DNA of 64,000 bases from Halalkaliarchaeum desulfuricum. GTDB taxonomy: Archaea > Halobacteriota > Halobacteria > Halobacteriales > Haloferacaceae. The position numbers were made by a program, and so were the translations under genes. Below the pieces are notes generated by a model. The model saw only the letters and a list, made by a program, of their open reading frames with translations. It had not been told where the DNA came from and searched no databases. Below, piece after piece: positions 4,934-35,058 of the stretch (its first letter is position 1; every line of letters begins with the position of its first letter). The stretch is from NCBI RefSeq assembly GCF_002952775.1, contig NZ_CP025066.1, positions 1,054,001 to 1,118,000 of the forward strand, in the 5' to 3' direction.

Positions 4934-5104
4934 GCTTCCTCGAGCCAGCGAATCTCCGATTCGCGTTGTTCGATCCGGCGTGAGCCGGATCGGGCTCGGA
5001 AATCTTCGATTTCCGGTGTTCGAGGAAGCGTGAGCTTCCTCGAGCCAGCGAATCTCCGATTCGCGTTGTTCGATCCGGCGTGAGCCGGATCGGGCTCGGA
5101 AATC
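4917..5104. repeat. Duplicated hairpin cassette between gnaD and dppF
   Basis: An 88-bp sequence occurs twice without a mismatch (4917-5004 and 5017-5104; period 100 bp). Each copy holds three inverted repeats: GAGGAAGC-GTGA-GCTTCCTC, GCGAATC-TCC-GATTCGC and GATCCGGC-GTGA-GCCGGATC. A fourth, GAAATC-TTC-GATTTC, lies between the copies. Copy 1 overlaps the last codons and stop of gnaD. The block lies between convergent genes and may end transcription from both sides. Confidence 0.95.
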
Positions 5105-5111
5105 GGAGCAG

Positions 5112-7641: not shown

Positions 7642-7650
7642 ATATCGATC

Positions 7651-8637
7651 TCAGTTGTTGATTCGTGGATCCAGCGCGTCCTGCAGACCGTCGCCGAGAA
7701 TGTTGAACCCGATCACCGTGATCAGGATCGCCAGGCCCGGCCAGAGACTGAACGTGGGCGCCGGCAGCATGTAGTGACGCGACTCCGAGAGCATCTGTCC
7801 CCACGACGGTGTCGGCGGCTGCGCGCCGAACCCGAGGAACGACAGGCCGGCGACGATCAGGATGCTCACGCCGATCTGGAGCGTTGCCTGCACCAGCACT
7901 GGCGCGAAGCTGTTGGGAATGATGTGCCGGAGGATGATGTTGCGGTCCTTCACCCCCGCCGCCCTCGCGGCCTCGATGTAATCTTCTTCCCGGATCGAGA
8001 CGACTCGCGACCGGATGAGACGATTGAAGATCGGGATCGCGGTGATCCCCACGCCCACCATCGCGAACGTCAAGTTGCGGCCGAACGCGACCATGAACGC
8101 GATCACGAGCACCAGGAAGGGGATGGCGTAGATCGTCTCCGTGACCCGCTGGAGCACGTCGTCGACCCAGCCGCCGTAGTAGCCCGACACCGCGCCGATG
8201 AGCGTGCCGCCGACCAGCCCGATCGCGGTGGCCATGAAGCCGACCGTGATCGCGATCCGGGTCCCGTAGATGAGCCGAATGAGGATGTCCCGACCCCGAT
8301 GGTCGGTTCCCATCGGGTGTTCGAGCACGCCCTCGCCGAACTGGTTTTCCATGCCGAACGGCGGCAGCAGCCGGGTTACCTCGTCGGGGTCGCGGGCGGG
8401 GTGGTACCAGACGGATTCGGCGATCGCGTAATCGAAGACGAAGTAGTCGATCGACGCGTAGATCGCCACGAGCGTGACGATCCCGACCACGAAGATGCCG
8501 ATCCGGGCGGTAGTGTCGCGTTTGACCTGTTTGAGCGTGTACCGCAATCCGACGCGGGCCTCCACCTCGTCGACGCCGCCTTCGGTGTCCTCCCCGGGGG
8601 AGAACTCGTCGGTCTGAGATTCGGTTCCAGTAGCCAT
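7651..8637 (-). CDS. dppC: Dipeptide-type ABC transporter permease, DppC type
   Basis: Membrane subunit of 328 residues. An acidic N-terminal tail of about 40 residues precedes the first helix, and about six membrane segments follow. The permease-to-ATPase coupling motif EAARAAGVKDRNIILRHI lies in the C-terminal half, and the end PRINN is typical of DppC. It starts 16 nt after dppB ends, so the two are co-transcribed. Confidence 0.88.
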   Translation of the reverse strand: MATGTESQTDEFSPGEDTEGGVDEVEARVGLRYTLKQVKRDTTARIGIFVVGIVTLVAIYASIDYFVFDYAIAESVWYHPARDPDEVTRLLPPFGMENQFGEGVLEHPMGTDHRGRDILIRLIYGTRIAITVGFMATAIGLVGGTLIGAVSGYYGGWVDDVLQRVTETIYAIPFLVLVIAFMVAFGRNLTFAMVGVGITAIPIFNRLIRSRVVSIREEDYIEAARAAGVKDRNIILRHIIPNSFAPVLVQATLQIGVSILIVAGLSFLGFGAQPPTPSWGQMLSESRHYMLPAPTFSLWPGLAILITVIGFNILGDGLQDALDPRINN

Positions 8638-20041: not shown

Positions 20042-20148
20042 GTGACAGCGTCCCCGACGGAAGTCGTTGGACGTCTTTTCGATGGAACAATAACGTAACG
20101 GTAGTGAGATCGTGAGTTTGTGAGTTTGCGCAGAAACGAAAGAATCGA

Positions 20149-20220
20149 AGCCTAGGCCGGGATTTGAACCCGGGCTCTCGTCCTTACCAAGGACGCGCTT
20201 TACCGCTAAGCTACCCAGGC
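20149..20220 (-). tRNA. tRNA-Thr (anticodon GGU)
   Basis: A 72-nt tRNA. Acceptor GCCTGGG/CCTAGGC (one G-T pair), discriminator U as in archaeal tRNA-Thr. The anticodon stem CGTCC/GGACG encloses TTGGTAA (anticodon at 20186-20188 on the minus strand). T-arm CCGGGTTCAAATCCCGG is standard. CCA is not encoded. Confidence 0.95.
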
Positions 20221-20268
20221 ACGCAAGAGTGGGTTGGCCGGATTCGTCTTTAGGGCTTTCGATTCGCG

Positions 20269-20928
20269 TCAGGAATCGGTCGTCGACGGCACTCGCCCAC
20301 CGGTCAACGTTGCGATGTGATCGGTGGTCGTCTCCGACAGTGCCTGCCGGGCCGGGGGCATATCGCCCTCGTACTCCCGGGCGAGTGTGCAGGCGTACGA
20401 AAGCAATTCCTCGGGGGGTTCCTCGTCGACGGCCGTCGTACCCGCCAGCACGGCGAGTTCGAACACGTCGGCCTCGAGGTTACGATCGAGCGTCTCGACG
20501 TCGGCACCGCCTTCCTCTCGGCGCGTCTGATCGCGGCCGAACGCCCGGACCACCTCGACCGCCCGGTCGCCGGCTTCGGTGCGGGCCAGCAGGTAGAACC
20601 CACGGGCGACGAGTACGTCGGCGGCGACGACGTCGAGATCGGCGTCGATGTCAGCCTCTGTGGCCGCAACGTCGGCCCACGGCTCCTCGTGGGCGAGCGT
20701 CCGGGTGAGGCGCAGCCCCTCGTAGATGAGTTGCACTCCGGCAGCACACCCGTGTAATGTGTCGAGATCGACGTCGGGCGAGAGCGCGCGGGCGCTCAAA
20801 AGCGTCAAAACTCCGGGAGTCATCGAGGCGTCGGCGATCCGGTCGTCGAGAACCTCTCGGAGCCGCACCGGTTCGATATCCGAGAGCGCCTCGCGCGCGG
20901 CGTTTCGAGCCCGCACGGCGTCGTCCAT
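20269..20928 (-). CDS. Conserved haloarchaeal alpha-helical protein of unknown function
   Basis: A 219-residue acidic protein starting MDDAVRARNAAREAL. It is almost wholly helical, with a central stretch DLDVVAADVLVARGFYLLA that recalls the helical bundle of polyprenyl synthases, but the Asp-rich catalytic motifs are absent. No function is proposed. The ATG at 20928 is chosen because the 49 codons upstream overlap the divergent crotonase gene and look unlike a protein N terminus. Confidence 0.65.
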   Translation of the reverse strand: MDDAVRARNAAREALSDIEPVRLREVLDDRIADASMTPGVLTLLSARALSPDVDLDTLHGCAAGVQLIYEGLRLTRTLAHEEPWADVAATEADIDADLDVVAADVLVARGFYLLARTEAGDRAVEVVRAFGRDQTRREEGGADVETLDRNLEADVFELAVLAGTTAVDEEPPEELLSYACTLAREYEGDMPPARQALSETTTDHIATLTGGRVPSTTDS

Positions 20929-21053
20929 CACTGTAATATTGGGGAGCGAAAGGCAAAGACCTTTGGAAAATCCCGCCGGATTCGGGGTGTGCACAGCCGC
21001 CAGATCGACTCGGAAAATCGCACGACTACGCCCCATCGACGGGAGGAACTGCC

Positions 21054-21749
21054 GTGACCGTTCGGACGAGGACACGCGACAGGGTCAGAACGGTCGAACT
21101 CGCGAATCCCGATCGGCGAAACGCCGTGTCGCCGGCCGACCTGAACCGCATCGAACGTGCGATCAGTCACGCCGAACAGGCGGGAGAGCCGGTGGTGTAC
21201 CTCGCAGGATCGGACGCCGCGTTCTGTGCGGGTGCGGACCTGGGCGCTGTCGCGTCGCTGTCTGACCCGGCGGCGTTCGCCCGACACGGAGCGAGAGTCG
21301 CCCGGCGGATCGAGGAGAGTGAGCCGATCGTCGTCGCCGGGATCGGCGGGCCGGCACGCGGCGGCGGCGTCGAACTCGCACTCGCGTGTGACCTCCGAAT
21401 CGCCACGCCGGAAGCGACGTTCGCGGAGTCGGGTGTCCGGCTCGGACTGTTCGGCGCCTGGGGCGGGACGGTCCGGCTGCCGCGGATCGTCGGCGAGGGG
21501 AACGCCCTCGACCTCTCGCTTTCCGGTCGGACGATCGACGCCGAGGAGGCGCTCCGGATCGGGCTCGTCTCCCGGATCACCGACGATCCCTTCGATGTCG
21601 CGGCCGATCTCGCCCAGTATCCGCCGGACGCGCTCCGGGGAATCAAACGGCGGATCCGGGACCGGAGTGACCTCGACTCTCAAGAACGCGCCGAGGCGGA
21701 GCTGTTCGCCCGGCTCCACGATCGGTACGGTGAAAACCTTCGCAAATGA
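21054..21749 (+). CDS. Enoyl-CoA hydratase/isomerase family (crotonase) protein
   Basis: A 231-residue cytoplasmic protein with a GTG start. The oxyanion-hole motifs are FCAGADLGAV (about 62-71) and ARGGGVELALACDLRIA (about 101-117). FAESGVRLGLFGAWGG lies where crotonases carry catalytic acids; Glu in FAES is present, but the usual second Glu position near the AWGG loop is not obvious. It may be a hydratase, isomerase or dehalogenase-like member. It is a little shorter than the common 255-260 residues. Divergent from the helical protein gene. Confidence 0.8.
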   Translation: MTVRTRTRDRVRTVELANPDRRNAVSPADLNRIERAISHAEQAGEPVVYLAGSDAAFCAGADLGAVASLSDPAAFARHGARVARRIEESEPIVVAGIGGPARGGGVELALACDLRIATPEATFAESGVRLGLFGAWGGTVRLPRIVGEGNALDLSLSGRTIDAEEALRIGLVSRITDDPFDVAADLAQYPPDALRGIKRRIRDRSDLDSQERAEAELFARLHDRYGENLRK

Positions 21750-21779
21750 CGGTGTGGTGGCACGCGACCGGGATATCAG

Positions 21780-22619
21780 TCACTCCCGCGACGGAGCCGG
21801 CGGCATCGACCGCTTGTGTTCGCTGCCTTCGACGAGTTCGACGACCCGGTGGATCTGGTCGGCCGTCACGTCCAGGGCTCGGACAGTGGCGGCGACCGAC
21901 AGCGGACCGTCGACGTGCAGCGCCAGGATCCCGTCGAGTGTGTCGTAGTCGACGCCCATCTCCTCCTCGTCGGTCTGGCCCACCCACATCCCCGCGGTGG
22001 GCGTCTGCATCACCAGATCGTGCGGGACGCCCAGGTGGGTCGCGAGCTGGCGCACCTGCATCTTGTAGAGGTTACCGATCGGATTGCAGTCGACCGCCTG
22101 GTCGCCGTACTTCGTGAAGTAGCCGGTCATCGCTTCCGAGCGGTTGCCCGTCCCGAGCACGATCCGGTTTTCGTGGTTCGCAACGAAGTAGTTCAACACC
22201 GCCCGCGTCCGGACGTAGACGTTGCCGGCGGCCATCCGGTCGTCTGCCGCCTCGGGATACCGGTCGAAGAACGTCTCGGCGATCGGCTGGATCTCGATGA
22301 CGTCGTACTCGATACCCAGATCCTCGGCGACGCGCTCGGCGTCGGACATCGTTTCGGGATCGTTCACCTCGCTGGGCATGAGCAGGCCGTGGAGGCCGTC
22401 AGTCCCCAGCGCTTCGACCGCGAGATACGCGGTCGTCGTCGAGTCGATCCCGCCGGAGAGGCCGAGGACGGCGCCGTCGGCGCCGGCCGCCTCGACGGTG
22501 TCGGCGATAAAATCGGTGATACGTTCGCGAGTTCGTTGCAGTTCGGCGTCCGAAAGCGTGAGGTCGAGCGGCGGTTCCCCCTGGAGGAAGATCGACCGCT
22601 CGTCGTCGAGTTCGCTCAT
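21780..22619 (-). CDS. nadE: NAD+ synthase, ammonia-dependent
   Basis: A 279-residue enzyme amidating nicotinic acid adenine dinucleotide to NAD+. The PP-loop SGGIDS is at 55-60. LGTGNRSEAMTGYFTKYGD and DCNPIGNLYKMQVR follow, forming the NaAD and ATP site. There is no glutaminase domain, so free ammonia is the nitrogen donor. The start at 22619 (MSELDDERS) is preferred to an ATG 12 codons earlier. It converges on the crotonase gene. Confidence 0.92.
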   Translation of the reverse strand: MSELDDERSIFLQGEPPLDLTLSDAELQRTRERITDFIADTVEAAGADGAVLGLSGGIDSTTTAYLAVEALGTDGLHGLLMPSEVNDPETMSDAERVAEDLGIEYDVIEIQPIAETFFDRYPEAADDRMAAGNVYVRTRAVLNYFVANHENRIVLGTGNRSEAMTGYFTKYGDQAVDCNPIGNLYKMQVRQLATHLGVPHDLVMQTPTAGMWVGQTDEEEMGVDYDTLDGILALHVDGPLSVAATVRALDVTADQIHRVVELVEGSEHKRSMPPAPSRE

Positions 22620-22802
22620 CGTCCGACGGTTCGGGTTCGAATAACTAATAGCCACCTGTACCGACTAAAGTGTGTACAATCAACCCAAAATTGGAATGAT
22701 AAACAAACGTTCGTTTATAAGGCAGGCAAAAATTGAGACGGAACTGGATCGTCGGGCGACAAGCGCTACGTTGAAGTGTTCCGATACGGTATCTCGACGT
22801 GC

Positions 22803-22873
22803 GCGCCGTTGGTCCAGTGGTAGGACAGTGGCTTCCCAAGCCACTAGCCCGGGTTCAATTCCCGGACGGCGCA
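22803..22873 (+). tRNA. tRNA-Gly (anticodon CCC)
   Basis: A 71-nt tRNA. Acceptor GCGCCGT/ACGGCGC, D-arm GTCCAGTGGTAGGAC, anticodon stem GTGGC/GCCAC enclosing TTCCCAA (anticodon 22835-22837), T-arm CCGGGTTCAATTCCCGG, discriminator A. CCA is not encoded. Confidence 0.95.
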
Positions 22874-22875
22874 TG

Positions 22876-22930
22876 CGAGGCCGAACGCAGTGAGGCCTCG
22901 AAAACGTGAACGGCGAACGAAGTGAGCCGT
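22876..22930. repeat. Two hairpins with the same loop, downstream of tRNA-Gly
   Basis: CGAGGCC-GAACGCAGTGA-GGCCTCG (22876-22900) and ACGGC-GAACGAAGTGA-GCCGT (22910-22930). The stems differ but the 11-base loops differ at only one base. Similar hairpins with a GAACGNAGTGA loop occur after haloarchaeal genes; here they may end the tRNA transcript. The rest of the gap to 23246 is AT-richer, with no recognised gene and one ATATTGATAA (23035-23044). Confidence 0.75.
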
Positions 22931-23246
22931 GAGCGCATGATTGTCTGTACTAACCGATTCCATTCTCTGCGATTCGGGAGATGGAGGCGGGGGTAAGATA
23001 CGCGAGCTGTAACTTGCATCGGGTTTCTGGTGAAATATTGATAAAATGGGCTTGAGTCCGGGCAGTCACTCACATATAGTAACCCAAGAACGATCCCCTC
23101 GATCCACAGCTCTTCGATGAGGTATTCGCCCCTTGCACACAGCAGCGGTCGAATGTCAGCTTAAATATGCGATTCGGACCGACTGGGGTATACAGACGTT
23201 GTACACATCAACTCCCAGGGTTGGCCCTGTTGCCTCGGTTGCTCCC

Positions 23247-23594
23247 CTAATTTGACTCCTCGGACGCCCATTCCAAGAGCGGACGAAGGCGATCCCTAAC
23301 CTCTTCACCTTCTTCGGTTAGTGCGTATTCGACACGGGGTGGAATTTCGTTATACTGGCTGCGCGTGACGAGCCCAGCCCCCTCAAATTCATCGAGGCGT
23401 TTCGAAATCGTTGATGTGCTTGCAGTCGGGAGGTGGTGTTCTATCTCGGCAAATCGCATCGAATCGTGCGCCCCAATGATACTCACCAACTGCATGGCGT
23501 ATTTCCGGCTCAACGTTTCGATGATACCGGTTAATGGACAGTAACACGTGCCGTCGATATTGCAGTTTGGCGCTGGTGAGGTTGCATCTGCCAT
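23247..23594 (-). CDS. HxlR-family winged-helix regulator with N-terminal Cys cluster
   Basis: A 115-residue DNA-binding protein. The N terminus has CNIDGTCYC (Cys 11, 17 and 19) directly before the helix-turn-helix, whose recognition region includes STSTISKRLDEFEGAGLV; the wing is RVEYALTEEGEEV. HxlR proteins often sense thiol-reactive or electrophilic compounds through Cys. It is divergent from merA by 75 bp, so it most probably regulates merA, with mercury or thiol stress as the signal. This role is inferred from position and the Cys cluster. It is not a MerR- or ArsR-type mercury sensor. Confidence 0.82.
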   Translation of the reverse strand: MADATSPAPNCNIDGTCYCPLTGIIETLSRKYAMQLVSIIGAHDSMRFAEIEHHLPTASTSTISKRLDEFEGAGLVTRSQYNEIPPRVEYALTEEGEEVRDRLRPLLEWASEESN

Positions 23595-23633
23595 GACTTT
23601 GATGCCTCGAAGTGTGTTTGAGGCTTTGGACTC

Positions 23634-23665
23634 TACAGTATAATAGTTTCGGGAAGTACAGTATA
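23634..23665 (+). promoter_or_regulatory. Direct-repeat operator candidate before merA
   Basis: The 9-mer TACAGTATA occurs at 23634-23642 and 23657-23665, starts 23 bp apart (about two helical turns), in the 75-bp hxlR/merA gap. The first copy runs into TATAATAG, a likely box A about 27 nt before the merA ATG; the second lies just before that ATG. A repressor bound here would block transcription. Confidence 0.5.
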
Positions 23666-23669
23666 GGAA

Positions 23670-25118
23670 ATGACGAAGTCAGATACGTACGATCTGGTCG
23701 TTTTGGGTGGCGGAGCGGCGGCGTTTGCGGCTATCACTGAGGCTGACAGACGTGGACTCTCGACGGCTCTGGTAAATAGTGGTCTCCCATTGGGCGGAAC
23801 GTGCGTGAATGTCGGTTGCGTCCCCAGCAAACACCTCCTCGAAGTCGGAAAGACTGCCTTCGAGCCGCCCCGTACGCCGTTCAAAGCCATTTCTTACGAC
23901 GACGGGCAGCCGGCGACGAATTGGCACGAAGCGATTGCGGAAAAAGATGATCTCGTTGCCGGATTGCAACACGAAAACTACGCGAGTGTCGCCGACCACT
24001 TCGGCACGAAAATTCTCGAAGGATACGGAGCTTTTTCGGATTCTCGCACCATCGAGATCCTCGACGGCCAGGACGCCGGTCGTTCGGTGACCGGTAAAAA
24101 GATACTGATCGCAACTGGCAGTTCACCGGCAATTCCCGACTTTCCGGGATTAACCGACGTACCCTACGAAACGAGTGAGTCGATCCTCGAACGAACTGAC
24201 TTGCCCGAACACGTCATCATGATCGGCGGCGGCTACGTGGGGTTGGAATGGAGTCAGATACTCCATCATTTCGGGGCGAGTGTAACCATCCTGCAACGCT
24301 CAGACCGCGTGCTCTCTGCGATGGAACCGCAACTTGGTGAGGAAATCGAGCGGACATTCACCGACGAGGGGATCGAGGTTATCACCGGTGCACAGATTCA
24401 GGCAATCGATGGGTCGGATCGTACTATCGAGAACGACGAGGATGTCGTCGTTGCTGCGGATGTGGGTGGGAGCAACCAGACGTTTGCGGGGAGCGATCTC
24501 TTCCTCGCAACCGGGGTCACCCCGAACACCGACGAAATCGGCCTGGAATCCGCCAAGATAGCGACCGAGAACAGCGGTGCGATACAAGTCAATAAGCGGT
24601 TTCAAACCGCAAATCCCGACGTGTATGCGGCCGGTGACTGTATCGGGGAACCAATGCTTGAAACTACGGCCGCGAAGGAGGGAAATCACGCCGTGAAGAA
24701 TGCCGTTGGCGACGAAGGGGTGACGATTGATTACCAAAGTGTTCCGGCGGTGGTTTACACCAGTCCCGAGGTTGCTTCTGTGGGTATCACGGAAGCCGAG
24801 TATGTGGAGGAGTTTGGCACTTGTACCTGTCGAACCGTTCGCATGGACGACGTGCCGAAGGCGAAGGCTGTCCGGGATAGTCGCGGCTTTGTACAGGTTG
24901 TCAAGCATCACGAAACGGATGAGATCGTCGGCGTGCACATGGTCGGGGCCCGAGCAGCAGACATGATCTCGGAGGCAACTCTGGCCGTAAAGTTTGGCCT
25001 GACAGTGGACGACATTATCGATACGGTTCACCCGTTTCCGACTTTCTCGGAGGCCTTCAAACACGCCTGTCAGGCGTTCCGTCGGGATGTCTCAAAAATG
25101 AGCTGCTGCGTCGAATAG
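23670..25118 (+). CDS. merA: Mercuric reductase
   Basis: A 482-residue FAD/NAD(P)H disulfide oxidoreductase that reduces Hg(II) to volatile Hg(0) in the cytoplasm. The FAD motif GGGAAA is at 13-18, and the redox-active pair Cys 45/Cys 50 in GGTCVNVGC. The second nucleotide-binding GGGYVGLEWSQ and YAAGDC follow. The C-terminal SCCVE has the vicinal Cys pair (479-480) that hands mercury to the active site and separates MerA from dihydrolipoamide dehydrogenase. There is no N-terminal heavy-metal (NmerA) domain. Base composition looks more AT-rich than the flanking housekeeping genes, suggesting transfer. Confidence 0.88.
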   Translation: MTKSDTYDLVVLGGGAAAFAAITEADRRGLSTALVNSGLPLGGTCVNVGCVPSKHLLEVGKTAFEPPRTPFKAISYDDGQPATNWHEAIAEKDDLVAGLQHENYASVADHFGTKILEGYGAFSDSRTIEILDGQDAGRSVTGKKILIATGSSPAIPDFPGLTDVPYETSESILERTDLPEHVIMIGGGYVGLEWSQILHHFGASVTILQRSDRVLSAMEPQLGEEIERTFTDEGIEVITGAQIQAIDGSDRTIENDEDVVVAADVGGSNQTFAGSDLFLATGVTPNTDEIGLESAKIATENSGAIQVNKRFQTANPDVYAAGDCIGEPMLETTAAKEGNHAVKNAVGDEGVTIDYQSVPAVVYTSPEVASVGITEAEYVEEFGTCTCRTVRMDDVPKAKAVRDSRGFVQVVKHHETDEIVGVHMVGARAADMISEATLAVKFGLTVDDIIDTVHPFPTFSEAFKHACQAFRRDVSKMSCCVE

Positions 25119-25223
25119 TTACATGAGACCCTCCATCACCGTAGTACGAACGGATCGAGAGCAGTTAGCCGATCGGGGCTTCGAAACTGTTAATTGACAT
25201 CTGCGAAAATTGGCCACGAATAG

Positions 25224-26978
25224 ATGGTTTCAGAAGTAGCGCTTTCTTTTGATCTGGCTATCATTCTCCTCGCTGCGACTATCGCCGGATTCCTCGCCAG
25301 GCAGACCGGCCAGCCGACCATTATCGCCTACATCATCGCAGGGGTCATAATCGGCCCTGTCGTGCTCGGCCTCGTCGAGGTCACCGAACTCACGGAGACA
25401 CTCTCGGAACTGGGACTCGCGTTTCTGCTGTTCCTGCTCGGCATCAAGATGCGCATCGACGAGATCAAACACATCCTCTCGCCGATCGTCAAGATCTCGC
25501 TGCCGCAGATGGCCGCCGTCGCCGCCGTCGGAACCGGCGTCTCGCTGGCGCTTGGATTCGGCACGATGGAATCGATTATCATCGGCCTGGCGGTGATGTA
25601 CAGTTCAACTGCGGTCGTCATCAAGATGCTCACCGATCTCGGCGAGACGACCACCCTCCACGGCAAGATCGACGTCGGAATCTTGCTGCTCCAGGACGTC
25701 GTGGTCGTCATCATCCTGGCTGTCCTGGCAGCGGGCCGTCCCGAAAGCGCCGCGGAGGTCGGCACAACGCTCGCGGTCGTCCTCACGCTCGTGGCGATCA
25801 TCACCGTCGCAGCGTTGGCGGCCTCGAAGTACGCGCTCCCACCCATCTTCCGGCGGATCGCCGACAACAAGCAGATTTTCTTCCTCATCGCCATCTCGTG
25901 GGCGTTCCTCTTCGTGTTCGTCTCCGATAACGTCAACCTCTTTTTGGCGCCGTTAGGCATCACAGCCTACCTCTCGATCGAGATGGGCGCGTTCCTCGCC
26001 GGAGTCGCCATCGCCCAGCTCCCTTACAGCAAGGAACTGCAGGATCGGGTCAACCCACTGACCGACCTGTTCGTGATGATTTTCTTCGCGTCGGTCGCGT
26101 TGAGTCTCGATGCCGGTGAGCTCTTCTTCTACTGGCAGGAGGCCGTCATCGCGGCAGTAGTGTTGATGATCGGGAAGTTCGTCATCTTCTTCGCGCTCAT
26201 CAGCTGGCAGCGCTTCGACAGCGAGACGACGTTCTTCGGCAGTCTCTACATGATCCAGGTCAGCGAGTTCGGTGTGGTCGTCGCAACTGCCGCGGTCGTT
26301 GGCGACTTTATCGGCGTCGAAATTCTCGGCTTCCTCACGCTTGTAGCACTCATCACGATGGGCGTTTCGGTGTACTTCTTCGCCTACGGGGGCGCTCTCT
26401 ACGAGCGAGCGCAACCGTCCCTCTCGCGGTTCGAGGCCGAGGAGACCTTCGCCGAGGAGAAACGGGAGTACACAGACCACGCGGTCGTCGTCGGCTACGA
26501 CGACCTGACGCGGAACGTTCTCGAACTGCTGGACGACCACTACGACGACCTCGTCGTGGTCGACCGGCAGGCCGCCCACGTCACCCAACTCACCCAGAAG
26601 GGCTACGACGCGGTGTTCGGCGACATCGGGAGCGGCTCCATCCGGAAGGACATCGCCCTCAAGAAGGCTGATTTCGTTCTCTCGTCGTCGGACCAAATCG
26701 AGATCGGAAAGACGATACTGCGGGAGACGAGCCAGGACGCGACTGTCATTCTGGAGGCGGGCGACGACGAGGACGCCCGCGCGCTCTACGATCGAGGAGC
26801 TGACTACGTCATTCAAAGCGTTCCCCTGTCGTCGGAGCGTCTCGCCGACTACCTGGAAGCGCTGCTGGAAGATCCGGACACCTTCGAGGACGCAGCAGAA
26901 CGCGACGTCGAACTCCTCAAAGATCCGCAGCCGTTCCGGGACGTCCACGAACGGATGCGAGGTGATCTCGATGAGTGA
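25224..26978 (+). CDS. Kef-type cation:proton antiporter with RCK (TrkA-N) domain
   Basis: A 584-residue CPA2-family antiporter. It begins with about 12-13 membrane helices (residues 8-395), including LGLAFLLFLLGIKM and QVSEFGVVVATAAV. A cytoplasmic RCK/TrkA-N domain starts near 418 (HAVVVGYDDLTRNVLELLDD) and ends with a short acidic tail. It would exchange K+ or Na+ for H+, gated by a nucleotide on the RCK domain. It ends just before a second, distinct Kef gene. The pair lies 105 bp downstream of merA, so co-expression is possible. Confidence 0.88.
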   Translation: MVSEVALSFDLAIILLAATIAGFLARQTGQPTIIAYIIAGVIIGPVVLGLVEVTELTETLSELGLAFLLFLLGIKMRIDEIKHILSPIVKISLPQMAAVAAVGTGVSLALGFGTMESIIIGLAVMYSSTAVVIKMLTDLGETTTLHGKIDVGILLLQDVVVVIILAVLAAGRPESAAEVGTTLAVVLTLVAIITVAALAASKYALPPIFRRIADNKQIFFLIAISWAFLFVFVSDNVNLFLAPLGITAYLSIEMGAFLAGVAIAQLPYSKELQDRVNPLTDLFVMIFFASVALSLDAGELFFYWQEAVIAAVVLMIGKFVIFFALISWQRFDSETTFFGSLYMIQVSEFGVVVATAAVVGDFIGVEILGFLTLVALITMGVSVYFFAYGGALYERAQPSLSRFEAEETFAEEKREYTDHAVVVGYDDLTRNVLELLDDHYDDLVVVDRQAAHVTQLTQKGYDAVFGDIGSGSIRKDIALKKADFVLSSSDQIEIGKTILRETSQDATVILEAGDDEDARALYDRGADYVIQSVPLSSERLADYLEALLEDPDTFEDAAERDVELLKDPQPFRDVHERMRGDLDE

Positions 26979-27004
26979 ACCGCCACACGACGGAGGGGAT
27001 AAGG

Positions 27005-28684
27005 ATGTCTGAGATGCTGACTGCGGTGGCGATCATCTTCATCGTCGCCGGGCCGTTCCTGCTGTTCGCCAACCGGTATGACCTGCCGGCCGCACCGCTT
27101 TTGGTCCTCGCGGGGATCGTCGCCGGCTTCTTCATCGACGAGGCGCTGGCGCTGGAGCTCGCGCAGTTCGGCATCGCACTACTGGTGTTTACCTTCGGTG
27201 TGGGGATCCAGCTCTCCAGCATCGAGATTGTGCTCGCCGACAGCGAACTCACCGCCCTCGGACAGATCCTCGTGGTCGGGGCACTCGGCATCGGGTTCGG
27301 CGTTCTCTTCGGAATTCCGCTCGGTGAGGCGATCTATCTCGGCGTCGCCGTCGCGCTGTCCTCGACAATCGTGGGGACCGCGCTGTTGCAGACCGAGATC
27401 CGGACGGATCTCATCCGGGGCCGGCTGGGCGAGTCGATCCAGTTCGTGCAGGATCTGTTCGCGGTCGCGTTCATCCTCGTCGTGGGTGCCGGCGTTCTGG
27501 AACTCGATCCGATCGTCCTGCAGATCGGCTACGGCGCCGTCTTCCTGGTTGGCGCTGTCCTCGTCAATCGCTACGTGTTCGACGCGATGGGGCGACTCGC
27601 TGGGGGTTCAGACGAACTCATGATCGTCGGGGTTGTCTCGCTTTTGGTCGTGTTCGTCGGCGCGGCGGCGGCAGTCGGTATTCCGATCGTCGTCGGGGCG
27701 TTCGCCGCCGGGCTGGCAGTGCGCCACGAGCCGGGCGAGTATCTGGGGCTGTTCAACGGCCTAGAATCGATCAAGGACTTCTTCGTGGCCATCTTCTTCG
27801 TGACCGTCGGTGCGCTCGTCGTCCTCCCGTTCGTCCAGCTCGGCGTGGCCGAATCGGTCGAGAAGCTGGCGCTCGTGGCCGGGGTCGTGTTGTTGGCGGT
27901 GCTCGTGAAGCCGGCAGTGACGACCACGATCCTGATGTACAGGGGATATGAGGCGCGGACGGCGACGCTGACGGCGCTCAGCACCGACCAGATCAGCGAG
28001 TTCTCCCTGATAATCGCCATCGAGGCCCTGCTGGTCGGACTGTTGACGCAGGCGGTGTTCGACGCCATCGTCCTCGCTACCGCCGTGACGATGATCACTT
28101 CGACAGTGACCCAGCGATACAACGAGCGGATCTACCGGATGCTTTCGACACGTGGCCTCGTCTCGGTCCGTCACGACAAGATCGACGAACTGAGCGACGT
28201 CCCGGAGGACATCAGCGACCACGTGATCATCGTCGGCTACGGCCGGAAGGGCAGGCGGATGGTCGAAACCTGTGAGGAACTGAATCACCCCTACGTCGTT
28301 ATCGAAAACGACCCGGCGCTTCGAGAGGAGGTTCGCATTGACTGTGAAGCGTACGTCTTCGGCGACGCGATGGGGGATTACACCTGGGAGAAAGCCAACG
28401 CCGACGAGGCCCGAGTCATCGTGTCGGTGTCTGGTTCGGGGGTTATCTCCCGCCGACTGCTGGAGCTGGAGTACGACGCGACCCTCGTCCTCCGGGCCCG
28501 GGACGAACGCACCGCGCTCTCGCTGCTCGACGCAGGAGCCACCTACGTCGCCGTCCCGGACCTGCTGGCGGGCCAACAGTTGATCCAGTACGTCCGTGGA
28601 CTGCTCGAAGGCGACCTGTCGGCCGAGGAGCTGCGAACGGAGGGGATCGCAGAACTAGAAGAACCCGTCCGCCTCATCCTCTAA
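27005..28684 (+). CDS. Second Kef-type cation:proton antiporter with RCK (TrkA-N) domain
   Basis: A 559-residue CPA2 antiporter, different in sequence from its neighbour. The membrane domain covers about 5-370 (FTFGVGIQLSSIE, VALSSTIVGTALLQ, STDQISEFSLIIA), followed by an RCK domain from about 405 (HVIIVGYGRKGRRMVE). The ATG at 27005 follows GGAGGGG, a better start than the GTG at 26975; it lies 26 nt after the previous stop. The two may assemble as partners or act on different ions. The 3' end is followed by a tRNA-Gly T-arm-like sequence (28717-28731). Confidence 0.88.
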   Translation: MSEMLTAVAIIFIVAGPFLLFANRYDLPAAPLLVLAGIVAGFFIDEALALELAQFGIALLVFTFGVGIQLSSIEIVLADSELTALGQILVVGALGIGFGVLFGIPLGEAIYLGVAVALSSTIVGTALLQTEIRTDLIRGRLGESIQFVQDLFAVAFILVVGAGVLELDPIVLQIGYGAVFLVGAVLVNRYVFDAMGRLAGGSDELMIVGVVSLLVVFVGAAAAVGIPIVVGAFAAGLAVRHEPGEYLGLFNGLESIKDFFVAIFFVTVGALVVLPFVQLGVAESVEKLALVAGVVLLAVLVKPAVTTTILMYRGYEARTATLTALSTDQISEFSLIIAIEALLVGLLTQAVFDAIVLATAVTMITSTVTQRYNERIYRMLSTRGLVSVRHDKIDELSDVPEDISDHVIIVGYGRKGRRMVETCEELNHPYVVIENDPALREEVRIDCEAYVFGDAMGDYTWEKANADEARVIVSVSGSGVISRRLLELEYDATLVLRARDERTALSLLDAGATYVAVPDLLAGQQLIQYVRGLLEGDLSAEELRTEGIAELEEPVRLIL

Positions 28685-28737
28685 CTTAACGCGACCGTAG
28701 GCAAAGCGTATACTGTCCCGGGATTCAATTCGTGACC

Positions 28738-28944
28738 ATGAGACGACCGGATGAACGGATGATCCCGGCTGAAAATCGAAAATGGTACCGCCTCGGTACT
28801 GCCATAGCGTTCTTCTGGGCAGCTTTCGTCGTGGTTTTGCTGTTGGCACTCGAGTGGAACCTGTTCTACGGGCTGGTGTTTGCAACGGTCGTTAGCGTGG
28901 TGTTTGGGATTGCGTTCACGTACTTCGTCTTGTACGTTTACTGA
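28738..28944 (+). CDS. Small two-helix membrane protein
   Basis: A 68-residue protein with a polar, charged N terminus (RRPDERMIPAENRKW) and two hydrophobic helices (about 20-40 and 44-66). GCGTATACTG lies about 27 nt before the ATG, supporting a real leaderless gene. A GTG six bases earlier is an alternative start. The function is unknown. Confidence 0.55.
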   Translation: MRRPDERMIPAENRKWYRLGTAIAFFWAAFVVVLLLALEWNLFYGLVFATVVSVVFGIAFTYFVLYVY

Positions 28945-29088
28945 TCGCTCATTCAGGTCAATCCTCTGTCGGTGGGTTGCCGTCCCCTATAGTCCATGTA
29001 CGTCACCGATCGAATCTGTAGGTTGTCGTCGGTTATTATGAAGGCTAATGTAAACGAACGCACTACTGGAACGCTTCGAAGCCACCGC

Positions 29089-30285
29089 TCAGGGATCCGT
29101 CTCTCCGCCGACGAGCCCCGAAAGAACCCGTTCGAGATCGTCGATGGGGAGATCCCGTACGGCAGTGTCGACGGTCGTCTGTTCCTTGTAGCCCGACCCC
29201 GTTAGAATGCCGACAACGTCGTCATCCGCACCGAGAGTATCGGATCGAGTCAATTCCTCGATCGCCGAAAGGACGAGCGCACTGGACGGTTCCACCGAGA
29301 GCCCGGCTTCTTCGGCGAGTTGTCGCATGGCGGCCCTGATCTCGTCGTCTTCGATCGAGAGCACGGCCCCACCAGTCTCGCGAACAGCAGTCAGGGCTCT
29401 CGTCCCGCTCGGTGGGTCTTCGTTCGCAATCGACACCGCAATCGTCTCCTCACCGTCGACAGCCGTCACCGCCGCTGACCCAGCCCGGTAGCTCTGGGCG
29501 ATCGGATCACAGCGGGCCGCCTGGACGAGATACAGACGAGGCATTGCCGACGAATCGAGCAATTCAGCCGTCTCGAGTTCCCGCAGTGCCTTCCAGATCC
29601 CGCTCGCGTTCCCACCGCTGCTCACCGGAAGGACGATCGCATCCGGAGCCCCGGGGGCAAATGCCTCGCAGATTTCGTATGCCACCGTCTTCTGTCCGGC
29701 GACCCGCAGTGGCGTATCCGAGTTGACGAACTCGATATCCACGTCGAGATTGAGGGTCTCCTCATACAGATCGCCATACGATCCGATCGCGCGAAACAGG
29801 TGCGGATCGTGTTGTCCGATGAGTTCGAGGCGTTCACGAGGCGTCTCCTCGGCGACGAGTACTGCACACTCCAGGTCGACACTGGCAGCGTGGGCGGCGA
29901 CGCTCAAGGCCATGTTCCCATGCGAAACGGTCCCAACCCAGGTCGTGCCGTCGGCAACTGCGTAACTGATGCCGACCGCACTCCCGCGATCCTTGAAACT
30001 CCCGGTCGGATTGAGCCCCTCGAGCTTCAGGTGGATTCGTGGCCCGTCCGCAGATTCGAGCCCTCGATTGCGATGAAGTGGCGTGTTGCCGGACACACGG
30101 GACAGTCCCACGGGTTCATTCACGGGTAAGACATCCACATAGCGCCAGATTCCCATCCCTTCGTCGGGCCAGTCAAAATCGCGTGTGTCGGTGTCGAACC
30201 AGTGTGGTTCGCCGCAGTTACAACGTTTGCGATCACGGAGGTCGTCCGTTGCCCCGCAGTCGTAACATCGCACCCGGGTATCCAT
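29089..30285 (-). CDS. thrC: Threonine synthase-like PLP enzyme
   Basis: A 398-residue fold-type II pyridoxal-phosphate enzyme. An N-terminal Cys knuckle (CYDCG ... CNCGEP, 7-26) precedes the PLP-Lys motif NPTGSFKDRG (about 92-101), and the phosphate-binding loop VSSGGNASG is near 226. Threonine synthase converts O-phosphohomoserine to threonine. The neighbours do not include thrB or hom, and haloarchaea carry several paralogs, so a related beta-replacement or elimination reaction is possible. The ATG at 30285 is preceded by GCTTTACT about 25 nt upstream. Confidence 0.75.
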   Translation of the reverse strand: MDTRVRCYDCGATDDLRDRKRCNCGEPHWFDTDTRDFDWPDEGMGIWRYVDVLPVNEPVGLSRVSGNTPLHRNRGLESADGPRIHLKLEGLNPTGSFKDRGSAVGISYAVADGTTWVGTVSHGNMALSVAAHAASVDLECAVLVAEETPRERLELIGQHDPHLFRAIGSYGDLYEETLNLDVDIEFVNSDTPLRVAGQKTVAYEICEAFAPGAPDAIVLPVSSGGNASGIWKALRELETAELLDSSAMPRLYLVQAARCDPIAQSYRAGSAAVTAVDGEETIAVSIANEDPPSGTRALTAVRETGGAVLSIEDDEIRAAMRQLAEEAGLSVEPSSALVLSAIEELTRSDTLGADDDVVGILTGSGYKEQTTVDTAVRDLPIDDLERVLSGLVGGETDP

Positions 30286-30516
30286 GGTATCCGTTGATCC
30301 GGTTCGGAGTAAAGCGTTCCTGTCACCTGGTGGAACGTATGTTTCACGTGGGAAGCTTACTCGCAGGATTCTCTGAAATAATGGATCACGTTTGGTGGCT
30401 CCTGAATTTGGGGCGTGAATTGTGAATCATGGACGCTTCGTCAGCGTGTTCGAGCGCGTTACGGAGATTTTCAGCGGTGGCGGTAGTCGAAAAGGGGAGC
30501 AGTGATAATCTTCTGA

Positions 30517-30531
30517 GATACTTTTAAGGGC
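30517..30531 (+). promoter_or_regulatory. Box A promoter of the universal stress protein gene
   Basis: GATACTTTTAAGGGC lies about 28 nt before the ATG at 30553, the standard spacing for a leaderless mRNA. Confidence 0.55.
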
Positions 30532-30552
30532 CATTTGAGACAACACGTAGGT

Positions 30553-30981
30553 ATGTACACGGTCCTTCTCGCTGTTGATAAAGAGCAACGGAATGTCCAG
30601 AAGCTCGCAGACGTTGTCATCGACTTTCCGGGATCCCCCGAAGAGAAAAAAGCTGTAATCGTGAACGTCGAACGCGAGTTCGACACCCCAGACGAGGGGG
30701 AGCGGGTGTCATCGGAAGACATGTTCGACGCGTCGAACATACCGAAAAGCGTCACCATGGTCAAGGAGCGCCTCGATTCGGCCGGGATCGAAACGACGAT
30801 CCGCCGTGAACACGGTGAACCGTCGGATAAAATCCTGGAAATTGCCGACGTTATCGACGCCGACAACATCGTTATCGGTGGGAAAAAGCGCTCTCCAGCA
30901 GGCAAAGCGCTGTTCGGTAGCGTGACACAGTCAGTCATTCTGGAGGCCGAACGACCGGTTACCGTGATTCAACGGGAATGA
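30553..30981 (+). CDS. Universal stress protein (UspA family)
   Basis: A 142-residue cytoplasmic alpha/beta protein. It begins MYTVLLAVDKEQRN and has the ATP-binding pattern G-x2-G-x9-G-(S/T) in IGGKKRSPAGKALFGSVTQ, ending PVTVIQRE. It should bind ATP and form dimers. It converges on the TAXI/TRAP transporter genes 69 bp away. In Halomonas the UspA protein TeaD regulates a TRAP transporter, so a link is plausible but unproven here. Confidence 0.85.
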   Translation: MYTVLLAVDKEQRNVQKLADVVIDFPGSPEEKKAVIVNVEREFDTPDEGERVSSEDMFDASNIPKSVTMVKERLDSAGIETTIRREHGEPSDKILEIADVIDADNIVIGGKKRSPAGKALFGSVTQSVILEAERPVTVIQRE

Positions 30982-31049
30982 GAGAGGAAAGGGTGGCCGA
31001 CTGCTCTTAGTAGTGTTCGAAAATATCCTCACAAGTACCGCCAGCGGTC

Positions 31050-33122
31050 CTACCCTCGATCGATCACTGAAGCCATCGGAAACGGCCGATCTGTCGCTAC
31101 CGTGCGGTAGACCAGGAACGTCAGAACAAACACACCGATTCCGGCAATCTGGAACAGCCTGACCGGGGCGATCATGACGAAAACACCCAGCCAGAACATG
31201 CCGAAACGGAGTGGATAGGCGAACCGTCGCTTCAGTCCGAACGGGTAGTTGAGGGCATAAATAATTGTTATCGAACCCATCATGATCACAGATGCGGTTA
31301 TCAACGTATTCAGATCGATCACCGTCGAAACCAGTTCTGGATGATAAATGAACGAAATCGGCAAGACGAACAGTGGTGCAGCGATGGTGATCGCAACACC
31401 ACATGACCGCCAGAAGTTCGAGCCGGCAATCCCGGAGGCAACTACGACCGCGATAGCCACCGGTGGCGTTACGCCCGCCATCACGGCGGCGTAGAACACC
31501 ATGTAGTGTGCGGCAAGTTCCGGAACCGCGAAGACGTTGACAAACGTCGGTGCGACGAGTGTCGAGACGATAACGTATGCTGCCACCGTCGGCATACCGA
31601 CGCCCATTACGATACAGACACCCATCCCGAACAACACGGCGATAAGCAGGACACCACCAGACAGCTCCATCAACATAATGGCGATTCGTGACGGCACACC
31701 GGTAGTCATCAGCAGGTCGACGACGCCGTTGACGGCGGCGAGGATGATCGCTATCGGAGCGAGGATGACCGCGCCTCGCCGGAAGCCGTGGATCGTGCGG
31801 CCAGTTTCTGTGAGGAACGTGTCGACGATTCGGTGTCCGCGAACGGTCCCTGCGACTCGAAGGACCGAGTTTTTGCCCCAGCGATCGCTGAGTTCGACCC
31901 GTGCGGATTGATGCCCGGTTACCACACCGTACGTCGATTGCAAGACCGGTGTCGTAATTCCCAGGATGACCATCGCGACGATCGTGTACAGTGCGGAAGT
32001 CATTACCGTCCACTGCAAATAGCCGAGTGTGAACAACAGGATCGCGAACGGGATACCGAACCGGGTCCCCTCCACGACCTTGTCTGCGGTCGTCAATTCG
32101 TCGTCGAAGTAATCGGCGAAGTCCATGCTCTGTCCACCGATCTCGTTGATGGACGTGTAGTGGACAGCAACGAGCACGGAAAACACCAGAATCGCCGCCG
32201 GGAGGAGGCCCGCAATAACCACGTCGATATAGGGAATCCCCAGTACCGACGCCATCACGAACGCCGAGGCACCCATGACGGGCGGGAGCACCTGCCCCGA
32301 GGTGGAGGCAGTTCCCTCGATACCGGCTGCCGTACGGCCGGAGAGCCCTGCGTCCATCATTGTCGGGATCGTAAAGGATCCGGTCATCCCTGCATTGGCG
32401 GCGTAGCTCCCGTTGATAGAGCCGATCACTGCGCTCGCAATGACTGCCGTTTGGGCCACGCCGGATTCGATGAACTTGGCGCTAACAATCGCGATTCGTA
32501 AGATCAAATCGAACGCCCCGAAGGCGAACAATAACCCTGCATACAGCAGGAATGGTGCAATCCAGGCGGCCGTCAACTGCGTCAGTGAGCCGTAGAAGCC
32601 GGCCAGATCCGTAAACAGCATCTGCAACATAAACGTCGTGTCGATCCCGGCATGTCCGAACAGGCCGGGGACGTAGTTCCCAAACACGGCGTACAGCATC
32701 GTCCCACCGACGAGCGCGAGGAAGATGTTTCCATAGGATCGCCAGGTCAGATAAAGAATGACGGTGACGACGAGCCAGCCGAGTCGATACTCGTGATCGT
32801 AGGCCCATCCCTGTCGACTAATGTAGAACCCCTGATAGTCGTTCCAGATGTAGATACTCGCGGCAATCATCACCAGTGCGGCCGCAAACAGGATGAGCAA
32901 ATCCAGATAATCCTCGTCTTCGATGGATTCTTTGGCTTCCTTGATGGCGTACAGGACGAGGATTCCCCCGAGGAACAACACCCCGTACTGGGATCGGCTG
33001 ATGTCCTGAGTCCAGGCCCACCAGAGAACCAGTGCCCACAGAATAAGGGCACCGACAGTGATGGCGTAATCGAGTATTGTGACGTTGATCTGTTGTATCC
33101 GAGACGCTGTTTCAGTACTCAT
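31050..33122 (-). CDS. TRAP transporter fused permease (DctQM type, TAXI system)
   Basis: A 690-residue integral membrane protein from the ATG at 33122. The N-terminal third corresponds to the small 4-helix subunit, and the rest to the large DctM-like subunit. Family motifs include GSINGSYAANAGMTGSFTIP, GQVLPPVMGASAFVMA and GVTPPVAIAVVVASGIAG. It would import an organic acid or related solute using an ion gradient and the adjacent binding protein. It lies 71 nt downstream of that gene and is probably co-transcribed with it. The substrate is not predictable. Confidence 0.87.
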   Translation of the reverse strand: MSTETASRIQQINVTILDYAITVGALILWALVLWWAWTQDISRSQYGVLFLGGILVLYAIKEAKESIEDEDYLDLLILFAAALVMIAASIYIWNDYQGFYISRQGWAYDHEYRLGWLVVTVILYLTWRSYGNIFLALVGGTMLYAVFGNYVPGLFGHAGIDTTFMLQMLFTDLAGFYGSLTQLTAAWIAPFLLYAGLLFAFGAFDLILRIAIVSAKFIESGVAQTAVIASAVIGSINGSYAANAGMTGSFTIPTMMDAGLSGRTAAGIEGTASTSGQVLPPVMGASAFVMASVLGIPYIDVVIAGLLPAAILVFSVLVAVHYTSINEIGGQSMDFADYFDDELTTADKVVEGTRFGIPFAILLFTLGYLQWTVMTSALYTIVAMVILGITTPVLQSTYGVVTGHQSARVELSDRWGKNSVLRVAGTVRGHRIVDTFLTETGRTIHGFRRGAVILAPIAIILAAVNGVVDLLMTTGVPSRIAIMLMELSGGVLLIAVLFGMGVCIVMGVGMPTVAAYVIVSTLVAPTFVNVFAVPELAAHYMVFYAAVMAGVTPPVAIAVVVASGIAGSNFWRSCGVAITIAAPLFVLPISFIYHPELVSTVIDLNTLITASVIMMGSITIIYALNYPFGLKRRFAYPLRFGMFWLGVFVMIAPVRLFQIAGIGVFVLTFLVYRTVATDRPFPMASVIDRG

Positions 33123-33193
33123 TGATAGATGGATTGGCGATTGATCCACTGCTCGCTCCACTGTTCGAAACGGGCTGCCCAGCCGCAGGGCAG

Positions 33194-34324
33194 TTAGTTC
33201 ACGTAATCGCCGACCATGTCACGGTCGCCGACGACCCAGTCGTCCTCCCAGACGTCGTTGTCCTGGTAATATTCGGCGGCACCCGGGTGGATCGGGTAGT
33301 CGGAGAGCGTCGGTGCCGCCGCACTCTCCGTGTCACTTGGCGTGAACCGTCGTTCGGCATCGCGCACGGTGTCGCCGTGTTCTGCCGCGATCCGAGTCAG
33401 TTCGTACACGGGTTCATCCGGTGTGTCGGGATGGAACGCGAACGTCACGTTGAGATCCCATGAAATGATCTCGTCGGCGTCGATATCCTGGCCCCAGTTG
33501 AAGTCCTCTACAGGGTTCTCGTACCGACTGAATCCGGCGCCGGCGAATCCCTGAACGGATTCGACAAGTGCGTCGGTGTGTTCGACGTATCTGACGTCGA
33601 CCCGGGAGTCGTATTCGACGACAAAACCGGTGTTACCGACCCCAGGCGTCCCGTATGCGATGGCAGCGTCGATGCGTCCTTCTTCCATCGCACCCGGTGC
33701 GTCCGAGACGTCCATGTCGACGATGTCCATCTGCTCGTAAATGTCGGCCGTCGGTTCTTGCGACCACACTTCGAGCGTCGTCGCCCGGGTCGAATAGCCC
33801 GGTTCCGCCGGATACACGCTGGCCCCGGCGAGGTCGTCGAACGTTTGAATGTCAGTGTCCTCCCGTGCCATTATATAAATACTATACGGGAACGCGAGGA
33901 AGCCCTGCCACGGGAGGAAATCGACCGGATCCTCCTCGAACATGTCCAGGTGATTCTGGGCCTTATCCATCGTGTTCGTGTCGGTAATGCCGCCATCGAA
34001 GGCGTCCTGCTGGAGCCGACGGACCGTTCCGACGTACCCAGGGCTCTCCACGGTGGCGTAATTGACCATGTCACTTTCGGCGGACACAGCCGCTTCGAAG
34101 GCCAGTCCGACATCCATCGTGCCACCAGCTGACGTTCCGATACTGATGTCGTATTCTGCGTCCTCGTCAGTATCGTCGTCGTCATCGTCATCTACGCCAT
34201 TATCGTCTTCGAGTGGGTCATCATCCGGATCCACGTCATCTCCGAGACATCCAGCAATTCCCACCACACTCATGCCACCGGCCGCTTGCAAGAAGCGACG
34301 GCGGTTCGGTTTTTTGCTTGTCAT
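33194..34324 (-). CDS. TAXI-family TRAP transporter solute-binding lipoprotein
   Basis: A 376-residue exported protein from the ATG at 34324. NRRRFLQAAGGMSVVGIAGC shows a Tat motif and a lipobox. A long Asp-rich linker (about 28-58) leads to the TAXI domain beginning YDISIGTSAGGTMDVG. Other family features are GGITDTNTMDKAQ and the GAMEEGRIDAAIAYGTPG loop. It captures the solute outside the cell for the fused permease. GAATTTATATAATAAAAG (about 34346-34363) lies about 30 nt upstream as a strong AT-rich promoter. Confidence 0.88.
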   Translation of the reverse strand: MTSKKPNRRRFLQAAGGMSVVGIAGCLGDDVDPDDDPLEDDNGVDDDDDDDTDEDAEYDISIGTSAGGTMDVGLAFEAAVSAESDMVNYATVESPGYVGTVRRLQQDAFDGGITDTNTMDKAQNHLDMFEEDPVDFLPWQGFLAFPYSIYIMAREDTDIQTFDDLAGASVYPAEPGYSTRATTLEVWSQEPTADIYEQMDIVDMDVSDAPGAMEEGRIDAAIAYGTPGVGNTGFVVEYDSRVDVRYVEHTDALVESVQGFAGAGFSRYENPVEDFNWGQDIDADEIISWDLNVTFAFHPDTPDEPVYELTRIAAEHGDTVRDAERRFTPSDTESAAAPTLSDYPIHPGAAEYYQDNDVWEDDWVVGDRDMVGDYVN

Positions 34325-34653
34325 GCGTGACAATCTATACCAGAATCTTTTATTATATAAATTCTTCGCCACCCCTCCAACGATGTGTCAGTTTTTTATC
34401 CTGAGGGACGTTCTATTTTTGCAACCAACATCAATACGAACAACTCCATTTACAATCCCCATATATCACTGTACATACTTATTAACTAAAAATTTATTTA
34501 AGGGTTTCAGCGGGGTGTTTTACAGGATGCACGAATACAGCCATGGACTTGCAAATTTCGGAAAATGCCACTCTGTTCACTCTGACGTCGGATGGATCGG
34601 GAGAGACGATCAAGGAGATCTGTGATCACCGAGAGCCGCCGAACGGATTTCAT
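34325..34653. other. AT-rich intergenic region upstream of the TAXI operon
   Basis: A 330-bp stretch clearly richer in A+T than the rest of the window. It contains the binding-protein promoter (about 34346-34363 on the minus strand) and an A/T block TTAACTAAAAATTTATTTAA near 34481-34500. I see no gene in it. The composition hints at an imported segment or a regulatory leader. Confidence 0.5.
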
Positions 34654-34854
34654 TCAAGCACCGACGATGTAAACGGTGTGATACCACTGGGCGAGCAGGA
34701 TAAGGAGCCCCAACGCCAGGACGATTTCGATTGCGCGGACGACGTACGGTGTGTAATTACGGAGCCATTCGACAGTTGTATTGTACGTTTCCTCGACAGT
34801 GGTAAGCAACTCGAACAACCGGTCGGAAATCGAACGTTCTTCCATGTGAGTCAT
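34654..34854 (-). CDS. Small single-helix membrane protein upstream of the TAXI genes
   Basis: A 66-residue protein. A polar N-terminal half (MTHMEERSISDRLFELL) is followed by one membrane helix (about 40-60), AIEIVLALGLLILLAQW. ATAATTTATT lies about 26 nt before the ATG at 34854, supporting a leaderless start there. It is on the same strand as, and just upstream of, the TAXI binding protein. It may be an accessory of the transporter, which is inference from position. Confidence 0.5.
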   Translation of the reverse strand: MTHMEERSISDRLFELLTTVEETYNTTVEWLRNYTPYVVRAIEIVLALGLLILLAQWYHTVYIVGA

Positions 34855-35058
34855 TGTCGAGAGTGTGCTGTAATAAATTATGCGCTGATATAGTCATATA
34901 CAGTACATTAATTAACGGTTGACTGGGTCAGTTTCACGGGTGGTTTCCCGATAACTGTGAAATCCCCGTTTGGATTTCGCCTAGAGGCAACCTCGGAGGA
35001 ACTATCGACATCGCTACCGACGAGGTCTCTTCCAGTGAGTGCCCGGACGCGACGGGAC

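Follow-up and report, generated by a model that had tools for sequence, protein, structure and literature searches.

The 64,000-nucleotide stretch of the Halalkaliarchaeum desulfuricum genome analyzed here (contig NZ_CP025066.1, positions 1,054,001 to 1,118,000; hereafter the window) contains a mercury(II) reductase gene, merA, that lies divergent to a gene for a small HxlR/DUF24-family protein and upstream of two antiporter genes. We consider it probable that the HxlR protein is an Hg(II)-responsive regulator of merA and that the antiporters form an independent module sharing one genomic island with this pair. On the best reading of the sequences, the pair would be a mer module whose regulator comes from another family, a third type beside MerR and ArsR. 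A search of the open-access literature, with subscription papers outside its scope, found no paper containing both HxlR and mercuric reductase. The regulators in a 2012 survey of mer systems are merR, arsR, and merD, with archaeal mer operons often consisting of merA alone (PMC3466566), and HxlR is not mentioned in a 2021 update (PMC8261052).

The HxlR-merA pair in haloarchaea

The hxlR gene (23247 to 23594, minus strand) encodes a winged-helix protein of 115 amino acids with the N terminus MADATSPAPNCNIDGTCYC, in which cysteines at positions 11, 17, and 19 form a C11-x5-C17-x-C19-P pattern. In a Pfam scan it matched the HxlR domain PF01638 with 64.8 bits (cut-off, 20.8), and neither a MerR nor an ArsR family domain was found. 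The merA gene (23670 to 25118, plus strand) encodes a core enzyme of 482 amino acids without the N-terminal NmerA domain. Its product scores 515 bits against the curated model TIGR02053 (cut-off, 454) and has both the redox pair GGTCVNVGC (CxxxxC) and the C-terminal cysteine pair MSCCVE; among its relatives, the former is present in 55 of 56 and the latter CC in 54 of 56. The alignment places Phe at the site of the bacterial Tyr605, the archaeal state, and the best structural matches are the mercuric reductases of the PDB. By the curated model the merA product is a mercury(II) reductase, and reduction of Hg(II) is its predicted activity.

We compared 48 named haloarchaeal merA loci, in most cases with 10 kb of flank on either side, and found a divergent HxlR gene beside merA in 38, with the HxlR proteins about 72 to 84% identical and a spacing of usually 75 to 79 bp. 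Partner genes in these relatives were called from tblastn matches and a codon-usage heuristic, and some starts are approximate. At nine of the 48 loci the divergent position is taken by an ArsR-type gene, and one merA lies at a contig end. Among 243 genomes, all 22 with an HxlR of at least 70% identity also carry merA (Fisher p = 6e-24); this and the other co-occurrence statistics treat genomes as independent, uncorrected for relatedness, and are overstated to that extent. When regulator type (HxlR or ArsR) is mapped by a quick method onto the MerA tree, it changes 10 times, and at least six of these changes are forced by well-supported branches. Because two unrelated regulators keep swapping before merA, we infer that both respond to the same input signal, which best explains repeated exchange at one gene. 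ArsR-type mer regulators respond to Hg and repress mer (PMC3466566).

The hxlR-merA module is found on plasmids in many haloarchaea, including Haloferax lucentense and Haloarcula marismortui, where on pNG600 it lies near genes for a P-type ATPase, a heavy-metal-associated protein, and a peroxiredoxin. The NCBI records for these two organisms name merA and call the regulator only "helix-turn-helix domain-containing protein." A second flavin disulfide reductase often adjoins merA in the same direction (L084, positions 4625 to 6010; also L088, L089, L091, and L094). It is about 35% identical to MerA, and its best models are FAD-containing oxidoreductase and lipoamide dehydrogenase.

Cysteines, sister regulators, and the shared control region

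C11, C17, and C19 are present in all 39 distinct merA-linked HxlRs, with no other conserved cysteine, and in all 38 merA-linked members of the set used for the HxlR tree, which leaves out three rows. In that tree the merA-linked proteins form one clade (support, 95/84), with a single change compared to 27 in shuffles. The first-pass annotation had described the three cysteines, the divergent merA, and the two antiporters downstream in the same direction, all of which we confirmed from the open reading frames at their given positions and the Pfam matches; its proposal that merA stands under a Cys-rich HxlR is well supported by the pairing at 38 of 48 loci, the invariant cysteines, and the single clade. 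The C19-P motif aligns with position 14 of Bacillus subtilis HypR/YybR and with the Cys-Pro found in other HxlR proteins of known structure, and C19 is, by this alignment, the sensing cysteine common to the HxlR/DUF24 family. DUF24 regulators sense electrophiles and oxidants through this N-terminal cysteine, modification of which causes the N-terminal helix of B. subtilis HxlR to flip (PMC7835342).

A sister group of HxlRs, 44 to 64% identical, keeps C17-x-C19, is without C11, and carries a cysteine, C38, in place of the Ser of the merA clade. This C38 pattern occurs in 23 of 24 sister HxlRs linked to merB, a gene of the alkylmercury lyase family (PF03243), and in nine of nine linked to an unnamed gene, here called d4. 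As read from coordinates, sister HxlRs adjoin about 25 of 45 merB hits, mostly as divergent pairs with four convergent ones, and the two genes co-occur across genomes with p = 1e-19. Linkage of the close HxlRs to mercury genes is constant, all 22 genomes that encode one also carrying merA, and sister HxlRs lie beside merB.

The d4 gene encodes a protein of about 110 to 140 amino acids that has a conserved QCC motif and matches no Pfam family (L217, positions 6086 to 6511; homologs in L213, L218, L258, L263, L264, L271, L274, and L280). It lies divergent to the same HxlR subfamily across the same control block and is an unnamed candidate mercury or thiol stress gene. Another HxlR relative, with a Cys-rich N terminus ending in CGCGC, lies beside a chromate transporter gene (PF02417; L222, positions 6573 to 8575, G205:C1), and related HxlRs with the same ending occur in L269, L273, and L277. 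An exception to the linkage of C11-type HxlRs with merA is found in L205 (positions 3860 to 6100, G029:C2), where such an HxlR lies away from merA and divergent to genes for a zf_CopZ-domain protein and a MerA-like flavoprotein. That flavoprotein is without the C-terminal CC and is not MerA by the curated model; the set may be a related system directed at a different thiophilic metal.

Some HxlR relatives are paired with a flavoprotein, others with a chromate transporter or with d4, and C19-P is the redox-sensing cysteine of the family. These facts would fit a YodB/HypR-type protein that senses thiol redox state or electrophiles in general, with MerA-family flavoenzymes as part of a stress response and mercury as one inducer. 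A precedent exists in Staphylococcus aureus, where a hypothiocyanous acid reductase named MerA is under the control of the thiol switch HypR, which belongs to another family (PMC10715087). We regard this explanation as unlikely. The MerA of H. desulfuricum passes the mercuric reductase cut-off, whereas it reaches only 246 against the 650 of the hypothiocyanous acid reductase model, and it keeps the C-terminal CC. Moreover, the sister HxlRs pair with the alkylmercury lyase family, ArsR-type regulators swap into the same slot, and no redox enzyme is a constant partner.

The 75-bp control region between hxlR and merA (23595 to 23669) consists of a shared TATA element with flanking CRAAGT/ACTTYG-type repeats, an arrangement conserved in 41 distinct merA spacers and in the promoters of merB- and d4-linked HxlRs. 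With few exceptions, the merA spacers share GCTTYGGACTC-N3-AGTATAA and its flanking blocks. The merB- and d4-linked promoters follow the order ACTTTG-N5-CGAAGT-N2-TTATACTG...GAGTCCGAAGTAT...ACTTCG, in which CRAAGT half-sites form inverted repeats around the TATA element; some repeat arms are degenerate in the merA group. The promoter and repeat block common to both HxlR groups spans about 80 bp. Its core, TTATACTGTAGAGTCCAAAG (23624 to 23643, minus strand), can by its sequence be used as a TATA element in both directions and has one exact match in the 3.31-Mb genome. Five other matches differ at three positions each; two matches were obtained with the reversed control pattern.

From these features, module 1 would be a minimal mercury resistance unit consisting of merA and a divergent HxlR across a shared control region of 75 to 79 bp. 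The CRAAGT/ACTTYG repeats flanking the shared TATA element are the most likely binding site of an HxlR dimer, which would repress both merA and its own gene; on our reading HxlR is thus a candidate autoregulated repressor. Once the thiolates of C17, C19, and C11 had bound Hg(II), the N-terminal helix at the dimer interface would be rearranged and HxlR would come off the promoter, after which MerA would reduce Hg(II) to Hg(0). Module 2 would comprise the tandem antiporters under their own promoter. The opposite sign of control is suggested by B. subtilis HxlR, which responds to formaldehyde, is activated through its N-terminal cysteine, and then binds DNA better (PMC7835342). By analogy, Hg(II) would raise DNA binding by an activator. 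Repression would be favored, however, by the overlap of the conserved repeats with the TATA element of each gene, and the ArsR-type regulators of the same slot repress mer (PMC3466566); we therefore find an activator improbable, more so than a general thiol sensor.

Several observations weigh against a mercury-responsive repressor. Some members of the sister clade are linked to d4 or other genes, and an ICLCP-type CxC occurs, with no mer genes seen nearby, in more distant HxlRs of other classes of the phylum (L302 to L317). The CxC alone consequently does not mean mercury and is probably older than the link to mercury. Inheritance of ordinary promoter sequence along with the gene could account for much of the conservation in the spacer. 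In the AlphaFold model of HxlR, the helix-turn-helix core has a predicted local distance difference test (pLDDT) score of about 80, and residues 1 to 30, which hold all three cysteines, fall below 50; because of this, we claim no geometry for the three cysteines.

The antiporter genes and the genomic island

Both genes downstream of merA encode CPA2 antiporters with an RCK/KTN domain, predicted to exchange K+ (or Na+) for H+, and in the Pfam scan both contain Na_H_Exchanger and TrkA_N domains. kefA (25224 to 26978, plus strand) scores 171 bits against PF00999 and 52.6 bits against PF02254; kefB, a second, divergent CPA2-RCK antiporter (26975 to 28684, plus strand), scores 100 and 60 bits. A GGAGG motif upstream of ATG 27005 makes this the more likely start of kefB over GTG 26975. 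On the NCBIfam KefB/KefC equivalog models, for which the cut-offs are 804 and 752 bits, one protein scores 154 and 150 and the other 64 and 65. With values this far under the cut-offs, the "Kef-type" of the first-pass annotation is correct, whereas "KefB/C" would be incorrect.

The tandem kefA-kefB pair is a conserved haloarchaeal unit. Four tandem CPA2-RCK pairs, each a kefA-like gene followed by a kefB-like gene, occur in the H. desulfuricum genome (G000:C1, positions 250036 to 253366, 272928 to 276270, and 521654 to 525002, and window positions 25224 to 28684).

The first-pass annotation had proposed a joint thiol-toxicant defense in which acidification of the cytoplasm by Kef complements Hg(II) reduction by MerA. 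merA, kefA, and kefB do lie on the same strand, with 105 bp between the end of merA (25118) and the start of kefA (25224), and in bacteria the two families have each been connected with thiol-reactive stress (PMC10224563). No terminator-like site between merA and kefA emerged from a scan designed for bacteria, nor was a structured RNA found there (fold z = +0.49), and transcription may read through from merA into kef. The comparative evidence points the other way. No kef gene was found in the flanks of the 48 merA loci, for most of which 10 kb per side was covered, and genuine merA (32 genomes) and kef (42 genomes) occur together in only three of the 243 genomes, where 5.5 would be expected; in the two besides H. 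desulfuricum, the genes are on different contigs. The two are thus rarely neighbors elsewhere, which is the genomic half of what the first-pass annotation had named as grounds for refuting its proposal.

Furthermore, kefA has its own promoter with B recognition element (BRE)/TATA-like sequence, TTCGAAACTGTTAATTGA (25180 to 25197, plus strand). The same motif lies at the same distance from the ATG in kefA orthologs without merA, indicating that kefA kept its own promoter. The closest kefA (87%, L119) has a helicase gene upstream instead of merA, and many genomes carry the kefA-kefB pair as a unit that has no merA with it and is preceded by varying genes. The putative HxlR operator core was not found before kef, its single exact genomic copy lying between hxlR and merA. 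Protection from electrophiles is established for the glutathione-gated Kef systems of gram-negative bacteria; according to a review, Kef is restricted to these organisms, and the shorter archaeal homologs are set apart as RosB-like transporters (PMC10224563).

The adjacency itself is explained by shared membership in an island. In a sibling genome of the same genus (G249), the one other genome of the genus used for synteny, the flanking genes keep their order, but a match to 20148 to 22912 is followed directly by a match to 35049 onward, and the intervening segment of about 12.1 kb (22913 to 35048) is absent. This segment carries hxlR, merA, kefA, and kefB as well as genes for a pyridoxal phosphate (PLP) enzyme, a universal stress protein, and a TRAP transporter, and its GC content is 0.55 to 0.63 against about 0.65 around it. 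At its left edge lies a tRNA-Gly(CCC) gene (22803 to 22873, plus strand) called by ARAGORN, with a matching tRNA 3' end in the sibling genome. Composition and the tRNA edge suggest gain in H. desulfuricum rather than loss in the sibling. No integrase was recognized in the island, in a search that did not cover every open reading frame. A copy of the tRNA 3' end as right attachment site was considered and rejected, as within the window only the tRNA itself matches. At the sibling site (L204, positions 7540 to 8260; G249:C2 near 812.5 to 813.3 kb), further partial copies of the tRNA-Gly(CCC) 3' end, GGTTCAATTCCCGGACGGCGCA, are found, as would be expected of a repeatedly used integration site at which several elements had inserted and later been lost.

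Given the gene order, co-occurrence, kefA promoter, operator core, and island evidence, together with the failure of either antiporter to match the KefB/KefC equivalogs, we reject a joint merA-kef operon and regard a joint defense as highly improbable. On these comparisons, HxlR-merA is a conserved pair, and the antiporter genes are unrelated neighbors that share its island in one genome. The merA-kef neighborhood should accordingly not be annotated as a system.

Relation to known systems and implications

The HxlR-merA pair resembles the archaeal ArsR-type mer operons (merRHAI of Sulfolobus and the euryarchaeal arsR-merA) in having one regulator beside merA and no merT or merP, and in haloarchaea an ArsR-type gene occupies the same divergent slot. 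It differs from them in its HxlR/DUF24 winged-helix regulator, the CX5CXC N terminus, and the lack of a merH/TRASH gene. With the MerR-controlled mer operons of bacteria it shares a regulator divergent to merA, a short shared promoter, and the expected cysteine ligands for Hg(II); unlike those operons, it has no MerR-family domain, an archaeal TATA/BRE promoter, and no transport genes. The Bacillus DUF24/HxlR thiol switches (HypR/YybR, YodB, and HxlR) are small winged-helix proteins of the same family with the same N-terminal Cys-Pro, and the protein described here is distinguished from them by two extra invariant cysteines, C11 and C17, and by its linkage to merA. The signals of the known members are electrophiles, oxidants, or formaldehyde rather than mercury (PMC7835342).

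The antiporters share with the glutathione-gated KefB/KefC K+ efflux systems of gram-negative bacteria the order of a CPA2 membrane domain followed by a KTN/RCK domain. They differ in scoring under the equivalog cut-offs and in having merA directly upstream of kefA, where no KefF or KefG oxidoreductase gene was found. Haloarchaea are not known to use glutathione.

A broader proposal, for and against which we see about equal odds, is that a separate class of mercury sensors arose in haloarchaea from HxlR/DUF24 proteins. The C11-C17-C19 clade would serve merA, and the C17-C19-C38 group mostly merB along with other genes; the set of ligands would have shifted with inorganic versus organic mercury, and HxlR and ArsR would have repeatedly replaced each other at the merA promoter. 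If true, these proteins would be a third type of mer regulator beside MerR and ArsR, in Archaea, and would represent a small, salt-adapted Hg(II) switch. The assignment would also give a name to a gene that public records list only under a generic helix-turn-helix description. The merA- and merB-linked regulators would form a natural pair in which one cysteine ligand has moved, so that selectivity for inorganic versus organic mercury would be testable by single substitutions.

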